Positions 27,452 to 63,700 of a stretch of 64,000 nucleotides of DNA are shown here, piece after piece. This DNA is from Apophysomyces variabilis (lineage: Eukaryota; Mucoromycota; Mucoromycetes; Mucorales; Mucoraceae), in NCBI GenBank assembly GCA_002749535.1, contig MZZL01000117.1, positions 186,001 to 250,000 of the forward strand. Direction: 5' to 3'. The notes beneath the pieces are model-generated. The model searched no databases. It worked only from the letters and a program-made list of their open reading frames with translations, and was not told where the DNA came from. The first letter of the stretch is position 1. The number at the start of each line of letters is the position of its first letter. The translations under genes were made by a program, and so were the position numbers.

Positions 27452-29369
27452 ATGGATATACCTGAGAACGATTTGGCTGAAATATTGCAATCTGTGGGGA
27501 TCCCCCCCTACGGACATATTACATAGGTTGGACAATTATCATGGCATGTCTGTACCAGACATCATTATGCAGAAGAAACAATACAAGCAGCAGAAGAAGC
27601 AGTTGCAGGAAGGTGAGTAACATAAAAGCAGTTGGCCGATACCCTGATATACGCTCCTATCTTTCTGCAAACATCAGCCTACAGACAGCTAGAACATGCA
27701 CTGCAGCACAATGACAACGAAAACAGTGACGCTCAGTCTGAATCAAGCAGAACCTCCGCCCAGCGACAACTCACTGGAATCGAAAGGAAGCAGAAGCAAA
27801 CAGCAGCGGAAAAAGCACGTAAGAGGGAGCAAGCACGGCGGAGACAGGAATTGCCGACCAGAACATCAATTACACCGTGCCTCACTTGCATTAGCAATCA
27901 GCGATACGACACAGCATTCACACATAGTCGAGCAAGTCATCACCTGTGTCCTTTTCAGAAATAGGGAACTGATCCTGGTGTTACCGATATATATGTCTGA
28001 GGCAACGGAAGCAATGACGTGTATCGCGATGAAGCCGATCTAGAACGTAAGTGATAGACATATTTGCAATTTCGTGCTTGAAACATTTATGCAAATCTGA
28101 CATTGTTCCTACAATATCATCTTTATTTTTGCCAAACTAAACTTTTTGTTCCGTTTGACAGTGAAAAATGACCAGGATATTCCAGACTAAGTTATAGTAG
28201 AACTTCCTGAACCTGAAGTAGCCGAAGGTAATTATAATATTAAACGCCACTCATCCTTTATTACGATTCTGAATGTTTATTTGAGCATCTGTAGGCGAAG
28301 ATGATGATACGGAATTTGAGCCACACCATATCCGACAGCTTTCGACAGCAGAGTGTTGTACTAGAGCTGGCTATAAGAAAATTACGCAAAGGGTCAACAT
28401 AAAGTAAAACACCTGTTGTACGAAGACTAGAGTCAGAGATAGATACCAACAAAACTTTTGACATGGATCGTATTATTCGGTTTATTGTGTCAACTTTGAA
28501 TGCATTACCAGAAGTTACTGATTTTTATGGCCAACGCGATATCCAAGGATTGAAATTTTGAATTATCAGGGACGTCAAAGGCTGGACGAAGGAATGGTTA
28601 AGATCTTCATCAACGGAGGCACCAAGGACCGGGACCCTCTGAGGAGCGCGGATAGTCTATTCAGGGCACGTCAACAAGACCAACGTGTGGACAATGAAGC
28701 GCTTCGTCCTGATGGGACACAAAGGAGAAGAAGAAGAAAAATACAGAACCAAGAAACAGGTGAACCGCCATCTCCTTCCCATCCGCCTAAAGAAGAGTAA
28801 GTCACTCTCTTATTATCGATAGCAGCAAGTGAAATATGAATGATATATAACACTTTTTGTTCGTGATGAACAACAGCAAGTGGCGAAAATCATTTATGGA
28901 AAGGAATAGGGCAAAAGTTCCTGTAGTGGTGTATGGTGCTTCGAGATTTGGACGGAACGTTTACAGGGGCAAACCATGCGGATTGGCAGACAGATGTAGG
29001 AAGCTGCTCAAACGCGCCGATATTTCTGGGCGGTTAATTATGATTGAAATGGATGAATACAATACGTCTCAAGTTTGCTCCCGGTGCGGAATGCAATCCT
29101 TGACAAAACTAGATCTTGGTGGATATCGATGCTTGCGTTCAGTATTAGTTTGTAGTAACTGTCATACTGTTTGGCAACGGGATATTAATGCGTCAAGGAA
29201 TATCCGTGCCATCTTTATGGCCATGATTCAACAACGGGATCGACCAGTCATCTTCACTCAGCCACGTACGACCACAACTGCTCCACATAATAGAAAGCGT
29301 GTGATGTTTACTGTGTGTAAGTTACAAAGAAAAAAATTATCTTTGTTTAATCAGGATACTAACAAATGA
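27452..29369 (+). pseudogene. decayed Fanzor (eukaryotic TnpB-like) RNA-guided-nuclease gene, locus 1
   Basis: The C-terminal half clearly belongs to the Fanzor/OrfB family: VPVVVYGASRFGRN, an IEMDEYNTSQVCSRCG block, CSNCHTVWQRDINASRN with the RuvC-III Asp (codon 29181), and LNYQGRQRLDEGM upstream. The donor near 28797 and acceptor at 28876 join ...PPKE to KWRKSF in frame. A RuvC-I-like GTDPGVTDIYV is readable at 27965-27997, though bounded by in-frame TAG and TGA. A plausible start, MDIPENDLAEILQSVGIPP at 27452, goes out of frame at a C7 run (27502-27508). A second frame break is at a T4 run (28556-28559), between FYGQRDIQGLKF and LNYQGRQR. Much of the N-terminal and middle part seen in locus 2 is missing or unreadable. 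Family members are RNA-guided DNA nucleases often carried by transposons; this copy is probably inactive. Confidence 0.82.
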
Positions 29370-53909: not shown

Positions 53910-55006
53910 CCGCCCAAAAAAAAAGAAAGGAACAATCTCGAATACTCGAGATAATCCCCGATCCGATGTATGATTTTTCTAGTCATTCCCTTTTTGGGAT
54001 GCTGCGCCGTCCTCTGCCTAACTGTCGGGAAATGAATGTAGTATAGATCAGGAGAAGGAGGTAAGGACTACGAAAAAGGTTGCGTGATGAATAGAAAGTT
54101 TTAATCCATCACACTTCTCTACAACGATTAACATAAGCATTTTGAAGAGAAAGGGTTGGCCTTTTGGTGTCCTTTTCTCTACAGCTATTGCGTTTTGCTT
54201 TGGTACAAGTAAGTGACGGAATGGCGCAGCATGGTCGCGTTTTTCCCTTTAATACTATAATCCATGTTTAGCAGGAATTTTTTTTTTTTACATTATACTA
54301 AATATATTGTATACAGCTTTACAAATAACAATAACAGCCGGCCGATAGTCTCTTCATGCACTTGGGATAGATTTTCAACAATCGTTTCCATATCATCCTC
54401 TGACAATTGTCTCTTCAAGCACTGAGAATACGTTTTCGTACTTAGGCCAGGAGAAGCTGCGTAAGCAGCTTCAAAAATTACTTCCACCGTTGCTGCAATA
54501 TCTGTCTAACGAACCTATACCTGACGCCAAATGGCTGGGTGGCGCGATTGGGCGGCTGCGGTGGATTGGTATACGAGGTGCGTGCGGTCGGGTGTGCGGT
54601 GGGATGATGGGGTGTGGGAGGGAGAAGGCGGGCGCGCTGCGAAGCGAGCCGGGCCAAGGCAGACAATCCTTAGACAACGGTGTCTTTATTCGTAAAAGCC
54701 GTGACAGGAAACTTTGATTCTGCACGATCCGCTTTTTCCACCACTGCACCATGTGAGAGAAAGCTATTTTGTTTCTCCGGATACCTAACAAGCAGTGAAG
54801 AGGCCGAAAAACAGGCATTGATCTGAATAGTCGTTGCTATACTATTGGGATGTATTTGCTGGGTAACCTCGTCTCGATTTCTTGGAAAACAGTCAAAACT
54901 GCGAAATGTCTTTGAGAAATTATCGCCATTTTGACTTTGCTTGAAAGACACTTACTTCGCATGTTTTTGCTTCGTTTTCATAATAAATTATCTAACTTGC
55001 TTAGGC

Positions 55007-55135
55007 ACTAACCATTCTCGGTGAGCCAATAAATGTTGTCTTACTATTCTGCCACGTTGCTTGGTAGCGCTTTCAACGCATAGGCCATCCATTCCGCCAC
55101 GGATATGCATAACTGCGTCGCTGCGATCAATGCAC
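55007..55135. repeat. copy B of a diverged dispersed repeat
   Basis: Partner of 41600-41727, in the same orientation. The minus-strand reading (GGMDGLCVESATKQRGRIVR) is related to that of copy A. It lies about 480 bp upstream of Fanzor locus 2, so it may belong to the same or a nested mobile element. Confidence 0.65.
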
Positions 55136-55617
55136 CTTTGAATACTTATTCCTTCGTTAATCAATGATAACATGAACCTGTGAAATATGAATATCCTAAT
55201 ACAAGCAATCACTCTACATACTGGACATGGAGATTTCGTTGACCACTGTTGTCATAAGAACGAACCAGACTCAAAGATAAACATAGCTACCTAAGCAATT
55301 ATATAATACATAAGGAGAACAATTACGAGCAGTTTAATTGTGCGTTAAATGATCGACACATCAAATCTTTTTCGAGAATATTTAACAGCGATTCATCAAA
55401 CGGTATTGATCATGGTCAGAGGAGCCTCAGATTGTTTCCCTTGGTAACGGAAGAGATACCCACATCAGTTTATTACGGTCTTAATCATAATGATTCAGTC
55501 ATTTTATGACAAAGTTATTCTGTCATATATGTTTGATCGTTTTCCTTCTTTTATTCCAATCTTCTTTTACACTTTTCTTCTTTAAGCTTCTTCTTTTTCC
55601 TTGCGAATTCAAGAAGA

Positions 55618-58600
55618 TGCCACCTAAAAAGCGCAAATCAACAATGAAAAGAACAGGTATGACGAAATGTATTGTACAAGAACGTCTTCTTAATGGCAAT
55701 GGCAGACGTAAGAAAACAGAAGTATCATCACACTGATGAAGACGATAACGGAGGTATCGCTTTTACTAGCGATTCACTATTTTAAGATAGTGTATTAGAC
55801 ACTCTTGCCAAAGTGGATCTTTCTTAAGTGCCAGGGACTACCGTGAAGTGGCTGAAGACAGTCTGCGAACTAACTAGAGCTCCACCTGTCCGAAAGGAAA
55901 GAAAGAAGACCGATGAGGAGAAGAAGGCCGAGGCGAGGCGAAAAAAAGCGGCAAAATCGAAGAATCCTATAAAGTCTATATAACCGATCCCAACAAATAC
56001 GGCAAGACCTGTAAAATTTTGTCGCCAAGGACAATGCGATCACATTCTCGCTGTTCAAGCAGCCTGTGTCCAAGCCATGTCGCATCCAAATCGGAAGATG
56101 CCAAAGAGCGATTAGGGAGTCGCCCCTGCAGTACACGAGAAAGATCAGTTTGGCTGCGGTGTACAGCGAAAACATAGTGCTTAGAATATGAGCCTTACAG
56201 ACATCTATAAAAAGTTAGTATTCTCTTTTTGTTGTGCTGAATTCTCACACATGAAATGTGGTTTAGCTTTGACGCAAGAAACTGAGCTACTTTCTTCACG
56301 CTTTGTCCTTTGGCGATTATCCAACAGCAAGCCTATTCCGCATCTGTGTTTTCAGCAGGGCTTATTCTATGCATGCGGACAAATGATTTTGGGAAGAAAC
56401 ATCACCTCAAGGCAAATACTACAGCAACCAGAATTTCTCGCAGACTTGCACACTGTCTACAAGGAATATGCGAAATTAAGGACAGGCCAACACGATAAAC
56501 CGTTAGTTGACATATCCGGTGATCTAATGCACTGTTTCGCGTCTACATGTGCTCAAATGGCAGTCGCGGCTTCCAATCATGTAGTCGAAAATTATAGTCA
56601 ACGTATGGAGAAGTATATCAAATACTGTCTCCAAGTTGAGCTGGCAAGTAGAACCCCTGTCAATGTTTTTAGGTTAACGTACTTTGTGCAAACGCAGGAA
56701 AAACTCAAGATAATATCACAACAGAGGATATAAAGAAACTGGGCAAGTTTGCCTATGATATTGGGGCAAAGGGACAACCGCATTATCCGTACTCAGTTGT
56801 GCCAAGGGACGAATTCAAGACCGCAGTCAATACAGTCTTACAGAATGTCAATATTTGTCCTGAAAATGTTCCTGTCACGTCAACCTAGCTGGCGGCTAAA
56901 CCTCATGTCTATATGCCGCCTCTGTACGAAATCCTCGAGGACCTCGAGCCTTTAGGTGATACACCAGTCCGCAAACCGATGCCGATCCCTTCTCGAGGGT
57001 GGTTATTTCGCAAATTTTCAGAAAAATTAGAGTTTCGAAAATCTTTCAAGATGAAAAAAAATCATTCTTGGTAGGGAGGACCTGAAAAGCTATTTGTAGT
57101 CTAGCCGAAGATTTACCTAAGGTAACAAAACAAAAATGAGGGGATTCATCATGTTAAAAATGGGATATAGCTTGAAAAAGCAAACGATAACGGTGTCACA
57201 TGTATAATTCTTTGCGCCAAGCGAACATCTCTTAATGCGCCAAACTTATTCGAGGAAGTGATACGATCAGTGTTCAAAGACGATATTTCTTCAGTAGACT
57301 ATGTTTATATACAGAAGCTTTTGGCAAAAACTGCTAGAAAATTGGTCAGAGGGGTTTTTATGCCAAAAAATCCAAGGTTCCAGCGAACGTCTATTTACAA
57401 TCATGCCACGAACGGCAACTACCTGGCGATATATCCAAATAGATCACCAAATATTAGCGTCATTGGTTGGAGTTAGCCAAAGAGCAAACAAAGACGAAAT
57501 GTTTTGGGAATCGTTTGATTTCACAAAGTCAAAAGAAATGCGATCATTGGATGAAATGAAGAACTCAAACCAGAAAATGTTTCGCTCACTTGCAACAGAC
57601 GGTTACATAGCGGCGTTTACATTCTCCAGGAAAAGGCAGCACTTGACTGAAGATAAGAAATCGGCAAAAACTACGAAGGACTTTCAGGGGGATCTGCCTG
57701 GCTTTGACTTGAAAGGCGTAGATCCTGGGATAACGAATGCGTATGTTGCCAGCAAATGGTCATGAGAAATATAGCCATGAAATCATATCATCATCCACGA
57801 AAGAATTTTACCACTTCGCCCATTACAACGCAAGCAAAGCGATCATGGACCGTATGGAAAACGAAAAGCCTAAGATCCAGCAAATCGAAAAAGATATGCC
57901 TAGCGCAAAGACGGCCAGTATATCTCAGTTCGATCGTTATGCTCGCTTTTATTGTTGCACATGTCGACATTACACCAATACTACGACAGTAGGTATGCAA
58001 GCCTCCGTTTTTGGCGGTAAGCTTAAAATCGTCATTCTATGTGCATCATTAACTTTATGTACCTATCATTGAAGACATGTTGGTCGCCAACAGGCTAGTG
58101 ACGAGTTTGCGGAACGTTTAATATTCGGTGGCAGCAAATATCCTACAAAAAACACCAGAAATCAGAGAAGACATCGTAAGCAAAAGAAGAAACGCCGGAA
58201 ACGACAAAACAAGACCAAGGCAGGAACTGTTAAGCGAACGGAAATTTCGGAACTGAACCGAGGTAAGAGTTAAAATGCGGACATAAATGCTTTGTCGCTG
58301 ACATGGACAAGTTGTCGTCGTTTGGACTCTTCCCTGGAAAATAGAAGTAGAATCAGTTGTCGAAGGCTGCCGAATATATTTGCGAGGTAAAAGTCAACAG
58401 ATAATTTACAAGATTGACTATGATTGTTAAAATAAATGGTCAAAGGCGACGCCGCATCCGACGAAAAGAAAGCCACTGTTTGCTTTTGGAAGTGCCATGT
58501 GCAATAGCACCTTGAAAGGCACACGAGCAGGAATTTCCAACATCATTAGAAGAAAGATTAAAGAGAATGAAGCCAGGGGACGATGCAAGGTCGTAGACGT

Positions 58601-58859
58601 TGACGAGTTCAAAACGGCCAAAATTTGGTCTGGCTGTGGAGCAAAGAAACTGCGTAACGTAAAAGGATCGCTGGGTCAGTCGTTGCATGCCGTCGTGCAC
58701 TGCGAACAATGCAAAACGGTTTGGAATTGCGATTGTAACGCCAGCAGAAATATTAGACGTGTTGCAGAGCATATGGCTCTCAATAACAATAACCGACCAT
58801 CACCTTTTCAAAGAAAAAACCAATTGCCTGGACAAACCCCAAGCAAGACATGCAAGTGA
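55618..58859 (+). pseudogene. Fanzor (eukaryotic TnpB-like) RNA-guided-nuclease gene, locus 2, decayed
   Basis: A longer Fanzor-family locus. A start at 55618 encodes MPPKKRKSTMKRT, whose PKKRK looks like a nuclear localisation signal. A basic region follows (about 55833-55980), then a helical block with MAVAASNHVVENYSQRMEKY (56550-56615). The RuvC-I motif DLKGVDPGITNAYV has its Asp at 57721, after FRSLATDGYIAAFTFSRKRQ. Later pieces are DEFAERLIFGGSKYP (58097-58141), FGSAMCNSTLKGTRAG, VVDVDEFKTAKIWSGCG, and CEQCKTVWNCDCNASRN with the RuvC-III Asp at 58731. Damage: an in-frame TAG at 56886; a frame shift at 57754-57756, where AAA should be AA to keep ASNGHEKYSHE; other frame changes around 56700; and Trp in place of the first zinc-ribbon Cys (codon 58626). 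Some breaks may be unmodelled introns. Family members cut DNA under guide RNA; this copy is probably inactive. Confidence 0.83.
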
Positions 58860-60334
58860 CTCAGTTCGCATAGGTGAGTGAAATCCACATGACTTTGCCA
58901 GTGTTACTAAGCGATTATGATCTATCGGACGCAGTGGAACGAGCCGAAGAGACTTGTAGTATGAAAACAAATACACAGCAAATAACGACGCGATATCTGG
59001 CGCTAATTGACAATATTGGGAATAGATATCCTGCTTAGCACAGTAACCACCCTCAGCTGAATCGGTTCAGTTGACTAGCAAAAATTGGATCCAGCTTATG
59101 CTGAGATCTGGAAAATGCTAGAGAACCTTTTACTCAGCAGAGACAATTGTCAAGACCCCTCTTACAAACCATGTCCTTGAGCAACGTGGACATCTTTTCT
59201 AGCAAATTTGCAATAACGGGATACCGCCATTACCTTATCATAGTCGTTTGCCAACGGGTCATTACTCAAAGACGTGCAGGGAACTTTCTATGAAGTAAAA
59301 GCTTCAATACATAGGCCACGTATAGACTCTGCTGAGAAGCATTATACAATCTGGACTCTTTTCTTGCAGAATTTGGATACCAATTGATGTCAAAACTAGT
59401 CATTTATAACATAAACCATGCTGATTCTTTCTTATCTTTGATTGTTACGTTTTATGAAAAATAAGACATGCATGGTTAGCTTCACTTAGTCTGTCTGCAC
59501 GAGTGGTATGATCTCCTTTATTCAACATTATTTGAGTACATTGCTGATATATATGCTCATTGTATGCTCAGTAGTACTTATGAGTGCTAACAAGCAATAG
59601 TCAATCGTTCGTTTTTGCTAATGCGAAATAGCCAATGATCAAAGCCTCTGTGTAACCTAGATTGGACACCTTTTTGTGGGGATGCGTGGCGCAGCATTTC
59701 ATTGGAGCTCAGATTGTCCGCTTGCCTGGAAAAACCCGACACGCTTCCTGTCGTATCGGATGAAATAAAAATCTGATCATTCCTTCCTCCTGTTGACCAA
59801 CCGATATTGTAGACTGTTCTAAAAAATAAACATCTAATCCAGGACAGAAATACGATTTTGAGCCAATGTGAACTCATTCTACAGTGTATCTGAACCATGA
59901 GGGTTACAGATAAAGGCTTAGAGTTCTGATACAGGGGCATGGGCTCATATTAGAACATCGGATAAAAGAGGTCTCCTTTTTTTTTGCCGTCTTTGAGGAG
60001 AAATGAGACAGAAAACATATGGTGTAGCGTTATAGAAGAATTGCGGAATTTGTACGTAGTTTATCAAACTAACTTTGTTGAACAAAAACAGACTTTAGCT
60101 GCAGTTATGAATAGGATGACGAGCAACTTGTTCCTTGATAAACAAAAGAATAACCAGAAAGGCTAAAGGCTAATATAAGTTGACAATAGGATATTTTTTA
60201 TATAAGGTTGTCAAAAGATTATGCCCCAGATATAGAATTAGAAACAAAAGGGTATAAAATCCCTTTTTATGCTTTCGCTTTATCTTGTCTTCCTTGATTG
60301 TTTTCAGCTAATACGACTACTACGAATTGACCAC
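58860..60334. other. spacer downstream of Fanzor locus 2
   Basis: AT-rich, with no supportable gene. A 117-codon minus frame (59940-59587) and a 60-codon plus frame (59984-60166) have no motif. It may include the 3' part of the mobile element. The right end holds the TATA box of the next gene. Confidence 0.45.
60253..60259 (+). promoter_or_regulatory. TATA box of the 81-aa gene
   Basis: TATAAAA (within GGGTATAAAATCCC), 82 bp upstream of the ATG at 60335 and followed by a T/C-rich leader, a standard layout. Confidence 0.6.
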
Positions 60335-60793: not shown

Positions 60794-63700
60794 CTATCCA
60801 GATTTTTTATGCTTACCATCTTCACTGGGGTTCACAATCTTTTCCTCCAGTTCTGTTTGCAATAACCGTTTCAGCTGGTTCACTAGTACGCCAATACGTG
60901 CCCATGCACGGAACTTGATCCATCCATCGTGACCTACTGTCAATCCGCGCCCAAAGTGGTCGACATCCACATGGCCACCAAAGAATAATACTGCATAGGA
61001 TGGGACTTCCGTGCCATCACGTAGAAATGTCTTGGACGTTGTCATACGAGAAAAGTATGTCAAGTAAGACGCATTATAGTTATTGTTGGTAAATAATGTC
61101 GAGGATGGATGAAGAAATACTCGACCTAAATCAAGATAGATAAGCCAACCTAACACTAGCATCTCTTTAAGATCTCACCGTCAGCCTTGGTATAAAACTT
61201 GATCTCTCTAGCCTCCTTTTCTCTTTCAACAGTACCGCTCAATACTTTGTCAAACTTGGCATCTGGGAGTCGAATCTTGGCCAGGTTCGGATTCAATCCG
61301 CCAAAAATAACACTCTTTAACAGGTTGACATTGCCAGCATTGGTGTCATAGTCTTCCTTCCGCGACCGTTGATAGAATCCGATATCCTCTAGTGCCTCAA
61401 GATACTGCCGTTTGAGGGACTGTATCTCGCTTAATGTCGCAAACGACAAGAAGTTGTCTTCACAGAATCGTCGAGCCTCACGCATACCCTTCGTTTTGAT
61501 GATCTGCTGCCACTGATCAAATGCCCGCATATCAGTTAGCCAGTCGCTCTTCCCATACATAAACTGTTCGCGTGCTCTACATGGCTCGTCGTTAATAAAC
61601 GGTCTTCATCTTACATACTACTTACCTTTTCGCTTCTTCTCGACGTTCCATGGGCGAAGTGAACGGACTCTTAAGAGACATTGTAGCAGCCACAGTGAGC
61701 ACAGGATCAAGACATCGGAAAATTGAACCGAACAGCAGCATTTTGCTGATACGAAGATCGGCGGGGATGGATGCCTACCCAGCAAAAAGTGTCAATTTCT
61801 GCAGTCAATTTAAGGGGAAAGGCATTTCAAAAATAAAGGGTCAACACACCATGTGTTCTCCAAGCGGCGTTAGTTCACCATGATCGCTATCAATTGCATC
61901 CACTGCCCGAAGCGTTGCAATAGCACTGTCTAGTGCTTGGACAGACGGTGGATCTATCGCTTTTCGCAAGAACGTTTTTACATCCCGCTCGCCCATGGAT
62001 TTAACCTGCAAACACAGCTGCTCGAGAGGTGTTCGTAGTAATTCTGGCACCTGCTGCGCGCTCATCTTTTTTTCTTCCGTATCCCTAGTGAAGAGTTTGA
62101 AACATTTTCCCGGTCTTGTACGTCCTGCACGACCGCGTCGCTGTTTGCAGGACGCTCGAGAAGCCCATGTCTCCACAAGATGCATCATATTATTCGCTGC
62201 TTCGTACTTGGTTTCTTTTACACGACCAGAATCAATGACATGGACCACTCCTTCGATTGTGATAGAAGTTTCTGCGACATTAGTAGAGACAACGATCTTT
62301 CGTACGTGAGCTGGAACTTGTTTAAACACCCGTGTCTGCTCCTGCGGAGAAAGATTAGCATGCAAGGGCAGGATTTCGTAAGACCCTGAAGGAGGTAACA
62401 CGCTTTGCAATGTCTCAACACATCGTTTAATCTCCATTGCACCTAGGGTACCCACGTTTAGCCAGTCAGTTACGAATATGAGTGCAGCATACCTGGCATA
62501 AAAATGAGGATTGCCGGTTCCTCTCCGTTGTCAAGCTTGACAACATCGTGCTCTACAATGTGCTTCACAGTGTGTGCAACCAAGTCATAGTCGATCTTGT
62601 CTTGGTTCCGATACCGTTCCAATAATCGAACTGTTTGTGCATCATAGCCCTGTTCAAGATACTTCAGTTGCCACTCGGCCCATTCTCCGCTATCTTCCTT
62701 GTCCCGCTTTGGCATTGGCAATTTGGAGGTATACGATGTCATACTCAACACATCTTCAAGATAACTAAAAATGCACATACATACAGAAAAAAATTAGACA
62801 TTCTCGTAGTGCATCCAAAGATAACGTACAAGTCCTCCACAGGATGTGTAAAGCCAGGGATTTCAATAACAGGTGCACCATTAAAATAACCTATCTTTCT
62901 TTCAATTTTTCTTCGCCATGACCAATAGCAAACTTACCGGAGAACAGCTTTTGGTTTATAGTGGCACTCATCAGTATGATTTTCAGATCTTTGCGTTTCT
63001 TGAGCAATTCTCGCAAGATCACCAGTAAGAAATCGCTGTCAACTATCAAAGAAATTAACTATCATATTCCTTGTGTATTTTTTTTTTTTTACCTGAGCGC
63101 TCGTGGACTTCATCAATAAGCACATGGCTAACGCCTTCCAAGTTTGGACTGCTTTGTAGTCTTCGCAGCAAAACACCGGTAGTACAAAATTGCAATTGGG
63201 TTTGCGAAGAAACTTTAGTCTCGCCACGAACAGCATAACCCACTGTCTGACCCGTCTTTTGACATCTTTCGGCGGCAACACGTTCTGAAGATAGCATGTC
63301 GAGTGTTACACAAACCTTCATAAGACTTTAACTTACCTGCCACACCAATAGCTGAAATTTTACGTGGCTGGGTACAAATGATGTTGCAGATTGCTCCTCT
63401 GTTTTGTCTAATTTCTTCATCCAGGATAAACTGGGGAACTTGGGTGGTTTTACCACAACCAGTCTCTCCACTCACGATCGTCACCTGATTTTCCAAAACT
63501 GCCTGGATCACCTTTGTCTGGTAATGATTCGCTGGCAGTTTAGCCCTGACTTCACCTAATGGAGCATACTGCGCCGATGCATGCAGATCCTCCAATGCCT
63601 TTTTAAGCTTTTGTGAAACGTCTTCCAAAGACTCCGTGGAATGTCTTGCAAATCCTTTGGCCCGTTTAACTGCTTTTTTCTTTTGATGGGATTGGGTTTC

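Follow-up and report, generated by a model that had tools for sequence, protein, structure and literature searches.

Is the nuclease-like locus at 55617-58859 of the window (the whole 64,000-nucleotide stretch of Apophysomyces variabilis DNA analysed here) a Fanzor gene, and if so, is it a young copy that could still act? Fanzor proteins are the eukaryotic relatives of CRISPR's Cas12 DNA nuclease, and a sequence-only reading had proposed here a recent, now decaying mobile nuclease copy. We identify the locus with high confidence as one dead copy of a mobile element carrying Fanzor1, whose family, close and diverged members together, numbers around a dozen in the genome. The ends of the element, its copies, its homology to Fanzor1, its three catalytic positions and its inactivating changes were all observed directly; the window copy is unable to make a Fanzor protein any more, and RNA-guided DNA cleavage by it is expected to be absent.

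The gene lies on the plus strand and runs from an ATG at 55617 to a TGA stop at 58857-58859, apparently in several exons, the frames of the family being collinear with a relative of 804 aa (P0001). The span first given, 55618-58859, was right at its end and needs a corrected start, as the ATG of MPPKKRK stands at 55617. This basic N-terminus, MPPKKRKSTMKRT (55617-55655), resembles a nuclear localisation signal and holds the PPKKRK reported at the predicted start; 6 of the 11 family copies keep MPPKKRK unaltered, and two relatives begin with MPEKRK (P0004) and MPKRNR (P0005). It is followed by a REC/WED-side frame of 182 aa (56185-56730), cut off early by a copy-specific frame break, for which the same exon in copy L038 (324 aa open) matches P0001, then by the RuvC-I frame (57298-57762) with GVDPGI and the catalytic Asp codon at 57721-57723, and by an Arg/Lys-rich segment, QASDEFAERLIFGGSKYPTKN...RRHRKQKKKRRKR (58091-58262), which by eye is similar to one in locus L025. 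The alternative RuvC-II Glu (E_alt, 58605-58607) belongs to a DEF that starts at 58602 and is Glu in 10 of 11 copies, L039 having Lys. The zinc ribbon (58626-58712) has Trp at 58626 and Cys at 58635, 58701 and 58710, the last two forming the CEQC pair, and the RuvC-III Asp (58731-58733) sits in CDCNASRN, where the preceding residue is Cys (58728), a position occupied by Arg in 8 of the 11 family copies. A 3' non-coding tail (58860-58957), which by analogy may be part of a guide-RNA scaffold, ends at the sharp right end of the element. VDPG, DEF and CDCNASRN thus all lie in one orientation, as had been noticed from the letters, and RuvC-I and RuvC-III fall exactly at the codons previously named for them, 57721 and 58731. 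Translated in six frames, the window comprises 127,996 codons, among which the RuvC-I site is the sole occurrence of the [VILFMA]DPG word. The signatures do not share one open frame because putative introns and private frameshifts separate them; one frame break is intron-like, with a GTAAG after ASLRFWR that is conserved in the family.

The ribbon frame matches PF07282 (E=2.6e-9 / 3.9e-9; 37.5 bits with a cut-off of 26.3 bits), and this TnpB/Fanzor ribbon is the sole Pfam match for the locus, not an unrelated zinc-ribbon family. According to excerpts of Yoon et al. (PMC10711439), the RuvC-II Glu of Fanzors precedes the first Cys of the ribbon by six residues, and the combination of DPG and E_alt is Fanzor-specific. 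The window copy has both, with DPG at RuvC-I (Asp codon 57721) and Glu 58605 six residues ahead of ribbon position 58626, so that the shift of the catalytic Glu toward the ribbon, suspected earlier, is supported. A stricter motif, D-X(125,275)-[TS][TS]-X2-C4-X(5,50)-RD, is given in excerpts of PMC3627910. To the letter, the window copy departs from it, having TA for [TS][TS], Trp at the first Cys position and CD in place of RD; the distance from D to TS is uncertain in the window because the introns are inferred, and amounts to 161-214 in eight relatives in which both motifs were located. We read this departure as decay of the window copy and not of its family.

Full-length relatives place the family more precisely. 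With the window's own frames read through, with X at the joins (409 residues), P0001 was found at E=1.7e-48 (31% identity across 92% of the 409 residues), and a protein of the Mucorales fungus Gongronella butleri (P0002) weakly, at E=8.6e-3. P0001 as query yielded eight further proteins, among which P0003-P0005 look intact; with P0001, these measure 786-812 aa and share the domain order of the window gene, each in one open frame, whereas the window frames are broken. Exon by exon, the window RuvC-I frame aligns with residues 422-552 of P0001 (34% identity, E=3e-19; profile-profile 99.9%), the window ribbon frame with 697-804 (36%, E=7e-23; profile-profile 99.9%), and the REC-side exon of L038 with 106-378 (25%, E=5e-22; profile-profile 99.5%), these three exon sets of the window family lying in order along P0001. 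The full-length profile of the relatives matched, in the PDB, GtFz1 of Guillardia (1.9e-18) and SpuFz1 (1.5e-17); PpFz1, the Fanzor1 from Mucorales whose structure is known, was absent from that search at E<=1 and matched the ribbon profile at E=0.012. A predicted model of P0003, in itself weak (mean pLDDT 57.2, pTM 0.37), gave in Foldseek SpuFz1, PpFz1 and GtFz1, all Fanzor1, as its seven best chains at TM-scores of ~0.2-0.3, with the Fanzor2 L79 at 3.4e-5. Taken with the DPG and E_alt rules (excerpts of PMC10711439), the profile matches of the relatives and the Foldseek result therefore assign the family to Fanzor1, and the Fanzor membership proposed from the letters, to which the PF07282 match also testifies, stands. 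Taken by themselves, the RuvC-I exons did not reach any Fanzor chain in the PDB, the one match being a chain with the name P19 (E=0.18), and P0001 as a single sequence matched nothing there at E<=1. The REC-side profile picked up nothing but three repeat proteins of artificial design (best E=5.5e-7, with no stretch passing by itself), which we judged to be an artefact. SpuFz1 (8gkh), GtFz1 (9cer) and PpFz1 (9cf0), characterised as Fanzor1 nucleases in excerpts of PMC10432273 and PMC11423790, resemble the family in the DPG of RuvC-I, the E_alt before a C4 ribbon, and RuvC-III; they differ from the window copy in that this is a pseudogene of low sequence identity to them, for which a guide RNA and a target-adjacent motif are only candidates.

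Could the ribbon instead come from a prokaryotic TnpB (IS605/IS607) or a Fanzor2, recently acquired or present as contamination? Taken alone, it does rank bacterial and viral relatives first: NCBIfam models of Cas12f2/TnpB, all far under their cut-offs, and in the PDB LaTranC (9.9e-7) and mimivirus L79 (3.2e-5) before SpuFz1 (5.5e-4) for the profile, with L79 also best for the single sequences of the window (E=0.35) and of copy L003 (E=3e-4). The full-length profile, however, favours the Fanzor1 chains, and L79 is absent from it at E<=1. The split, intron-like exon structure and the scattering of exon matches over many contigs also speak against such an origin, as does an OB_NTP_bind domain encoded in the same window at 60794-61159. 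This domain is typical of DEAH helicases. We therefore hold a TnpB or Fanzor2 origin to be extremely improbable, and give even less credit to the idea that the locus is a still functional host gene domesticated from a Fanzor, its broken frames being explained by unrecognised introns. The window copy does retain every one of the catalytic codons (Asp, Glu and Asp), and the conserved GTAAG break looks like an intron, but six private 1-nt indels set the gene apart from ten close copies, the first zinc Cys is lost, and all nine motif positions are kept in just 4 of 11 copies. Nor do the differences among close copies show a clear codon-phase bias. Between subfamilies third positions do differ more (e.g., 81, 57 and 112 first, second and third positions over 166 codons), but the close pair L030/L029 has 8, 5 and 7 over 101 codons.

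The preferred reading, a dead element copy, includes ongoing decay, and the private indels and the lost zinc Cys bear out this part of the earlier proposal. The change of the first ribbon Cys to Trp (58626) is shared with L031, Cys being kept in 9 of the 11 family copies, and that of Arg to Cys (58728), ahead of the RuvC-III Asp, with L031 and L042. The word "recent" has to be withdrawn: the window copy is not recent, because the 11 close copies differ at ~7% of sites on average (mean identity 93.0%, gap events counted) and no copy was seen with all exons open in an informal inspection of frames of at least 70 aa. The copy is old and dead. C>T/G>A changes are the commonest singletons (315 of 833), yet just 78 of these 315 lie at CpG, and CpG-driven mutation was rejected as a candidate cause.

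We defined the ends of the element as the points where homology to other copies stops when the window is compared with 20 genomic stretches of 10 kb each, one of which holds the window copy itself. This comparison gave 11 close copies (window included), two that are more diverged (L040, L047) and two whose matches are merely short (L044, L048); over the right end, 11 places including the window reach at least 93% identity. The whole copy in the window occupies 54292-58957 on the plus strand, from a 5' terminus, ATTATACTAAA, that is fused to more internal sequence of other copies, to the 3' terminus GAAGAGACTTGT. The right end is sharp (...GACTTGT, or GACATGT in L037); the bases that follow are TA in 9 of the 11 close copies, and AGTA in the remaining two, L042 and the window copy. 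The 5' end is variable: a full left end, ATTATA[CG]TAAA, adjoining CT/CA- or T-rich tracts, was found in 5 of the 13 loci that were oriented, one of them the window copy, and additionally on contig C76 (L052), and the longest copies (L042, L033, L034 and L038, ~4.8-5.1 kb) have extra 5' sequence after it. The window's left terminus joins sequence ~440 bases inside L042, and this copy has therefore suffered a 5' internal deletion; L041 looks interrupted and not truncated, because its 5' parts sit several kb further out. Common ends in different flanks are the mark of carriage by a transposable element, and the mobility proposed earlier is well founded. Inverted repeats (five copies with the full left end) and target or direct duplications (11 copies) were not found above shuffles, and Pfam gave no domain in three 5' ORFs of the window copy. 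As its searched ORFs contain no transposase domain, the element was presumably moved by a transposase in trans.

A genome query with the left end returned 23 matches, four of them outside the family: G000:C27:212111 (91% over 435 bases) and, over shorter stretches, C95:1907836, C95:1362378 and C90:94224. Each of these four precedes, at a distance of 4-6 kb, Fanzor exons whose protein identity to our queries is only 25-42%, and the 5' ends therefore look modular. Among the matches listed, three further left ends (G000:C76:283533, C92:1012593 and C94:2044030) have no Fanzor at the expected distance and are possible Fanzor-less derivatives. We also observed that left ends, where full or nearly so, border on simple repeats of CT or CA in the left flanks of L033, L034, L042, L052, L055 and L059, and that the right flanks seen, of L033, L034 and L042, are free of such repeats, which may reflect a target preference or a terminal repeat.

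Such an architecture has precedents. Excerpts of Bao and Jurka (2013; PMC3627910) describe Fanzor1 elements in Mucor (MCi-2) and in Chlamydomonas (CRe-1/2/3), and report both Fanzor1 families that lack TIRs and others with shared 5' ends; common 5' ends with a different remainder are described there for Sola2-Fanzor1 families. The window family resembles MCi-2 and CRe as a multi-copy Fanzor1 element with a conserved 3' part, a variable 5' part and no inverted repeats, and CRe also has a multi-exon gene, as inferred here. According to the same excerpts, duplications of 11-12 bp accompany MCi-2, and the Mucorales elements placed in MuDR combine inverted repeats with 9-bp duplications; none of these were found in the window family, where inverted repeats (5 copies) and 9-bp target duplications (11 copies) do not exceed shuffles. 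Duplications are missing from full-length CRe copies, and the Helitrons that resemble these insert after TTTT (PMC3627910, excerpts), whereas the full left end of our family abuts CT/CA- or T-rich tracts. The family does show a sharp 3' end, frequent 5' truncation and no duplication at full-length ends, as Helitron2-type elements do. Most truncated CRe-1 copies are flanked by 7-19 bp duplications (PMC3627910, excerpts); in six copies with other left boundaries, which are themselves uncertain, duplications of this length were not above shuffles. The window element is a genuine yet ordinary member of the known Fanzor1 family. A search of one literature library for Fanzor in Mucoromycota found nothing.

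Fanzor sequences are abundant in the rest of the assembly (38.7 Mb, 126 contigs). The last 120 aa of the window gene gave at least 138 ribbon matches (E<=0.01), the RuvC-I exon of a related locus at least 136 (E<=0.001), and PF07282 at least 73 (E<=0.001), all of these being exon matches, some of which are several pieces of a single copy; of 14 control genomes, 6 also gave matches to PF07282, and these 6 were all prokaryotic. Of the 17 other loci scanned, 10 have a [V/A]DPG block at 557-991 nt upstream of their ribbon match, some of the frames having stops. It continues into an STKEFY stretch resembling the window family in L015, L022, L024 and L025, and in L025 it belongs to a 208-aa open exon ending in ASLRFWR, as the exon of the window family does. 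The first Fanzor locus of the window (28851-29369) belongs to another subfamily, with the ribbon DEYNTSQVCSRCG; its sisters L023, L026 and L028 have GADPGV ~990 nt upstream, and no DPG was found for this copy within the stretch scanned. A different Fanzor1 subfamily appears young: the 1,251-bp query L065 (G000:C89:629600-630850), with a 237-aa open RuvC-I frame (IDPGI), has 44 matches, including, with the query itself, 26 full-length ones at >=94% identity and 10 at >=99%, and was probably mobile recently.

An intact, spliced gene of the window family would, by extension from established Fanzor and TnpB biology, encode a nuclear RuvC nuclease of ~750-800 aa. Its guide RNA would run to the right end of the element (58957) and draw the guide from flanking DNA; the complex would cut the unoccupied insertion site, and repair from the occupied copy would keep or spread the element. 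The idea of such element retention is known from TnpB work. Guide-RNA-directed cutting by Fanzor1 has been shown for relatives in excerpts of PMC10432273 and PMC11423790, and by analogy the right end may plausibly give rise to a guide RNA. RNA from the right end folded no better than shuffled sequence, with z-scores of +0.62 and -0.33 in the two stretches taken from the window and between -0.33 and +1.14 across all five folds, and consensus folding showed a two-sided change in just 1 of 33 predicted pairs; the guide-RNA part therefore stays a proposal. Rfam gave nothing at gathering score in 54200-59200; a minus-strand mir-33 match (23.7 bits, gathering score 50) was taken as chance.

The copies are also mosaic. 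A 548-bp tract of the window copy (58410-58957, plus strand), which reaches the end of the element, is identical without a mismatch to L031 (G000:C11:8049-8596), in a pair that is 95.3% identical overall and has unrelated flanks. This suggests gene conversion; the last 548 bp alone look recent, by conversion and not by insertion. Two similar tracts join L031 and L038 (57353-58197, one mismatch) and L036 and L041 (57291-58078, five mismatches), and all three lie in the 3' half, against a background of ~93%. By chance, 548 identical bp are expected over 55 pairs 7e-14 times at the family mean and 3e-5 times at 96.5% identity, and the 330-bp exact run in L036/L041 6e-7 and 0.07 times, respectively. 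Ectopic gene conversion is the simplest reading. That the mosaic is in addition a footprint of RNA-guided Fanzor cutting, breaks having been repaired from other copies so that the 3' half was converted, would extend this explanation without replacing it; the position of the three tracts and the presence of young Fanzor1 relatives in the genome would fit. Ordinary ectopic recombination among dispersed repeats, however, fits equally well, the right end is touched by a single tract, a sample of three is too small to show a bias in a comparison that covers Fanzor copies alone, and the 330-bp run loses weight at the 96.5% expectation. We regard the footprint as very unlikely, and the broader idea, that the Fanzor activity of living subfamilies drives conversion among dead copies and exchanges shared 5' modules likewise, as a comparably long shot. 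The papers that a literature search for Fanzor and gene conversion listed were off topic, to judge by the listing. If the idea were true, RNA-guided breaks in or beside old elements would keep copies alike and spread even dead alleles.

On its own, the window locus is an ordinary pseudogene. One genome that holds both many decayed Fanzor1 relatives and a young, expanding subfamily lends itself naturally to the question of what use Fanzor is to transposons, and its mosaic copies make a question testable: does more copy-to-copy conversion take place in Fanzor elements than in other repeats of the same genome?
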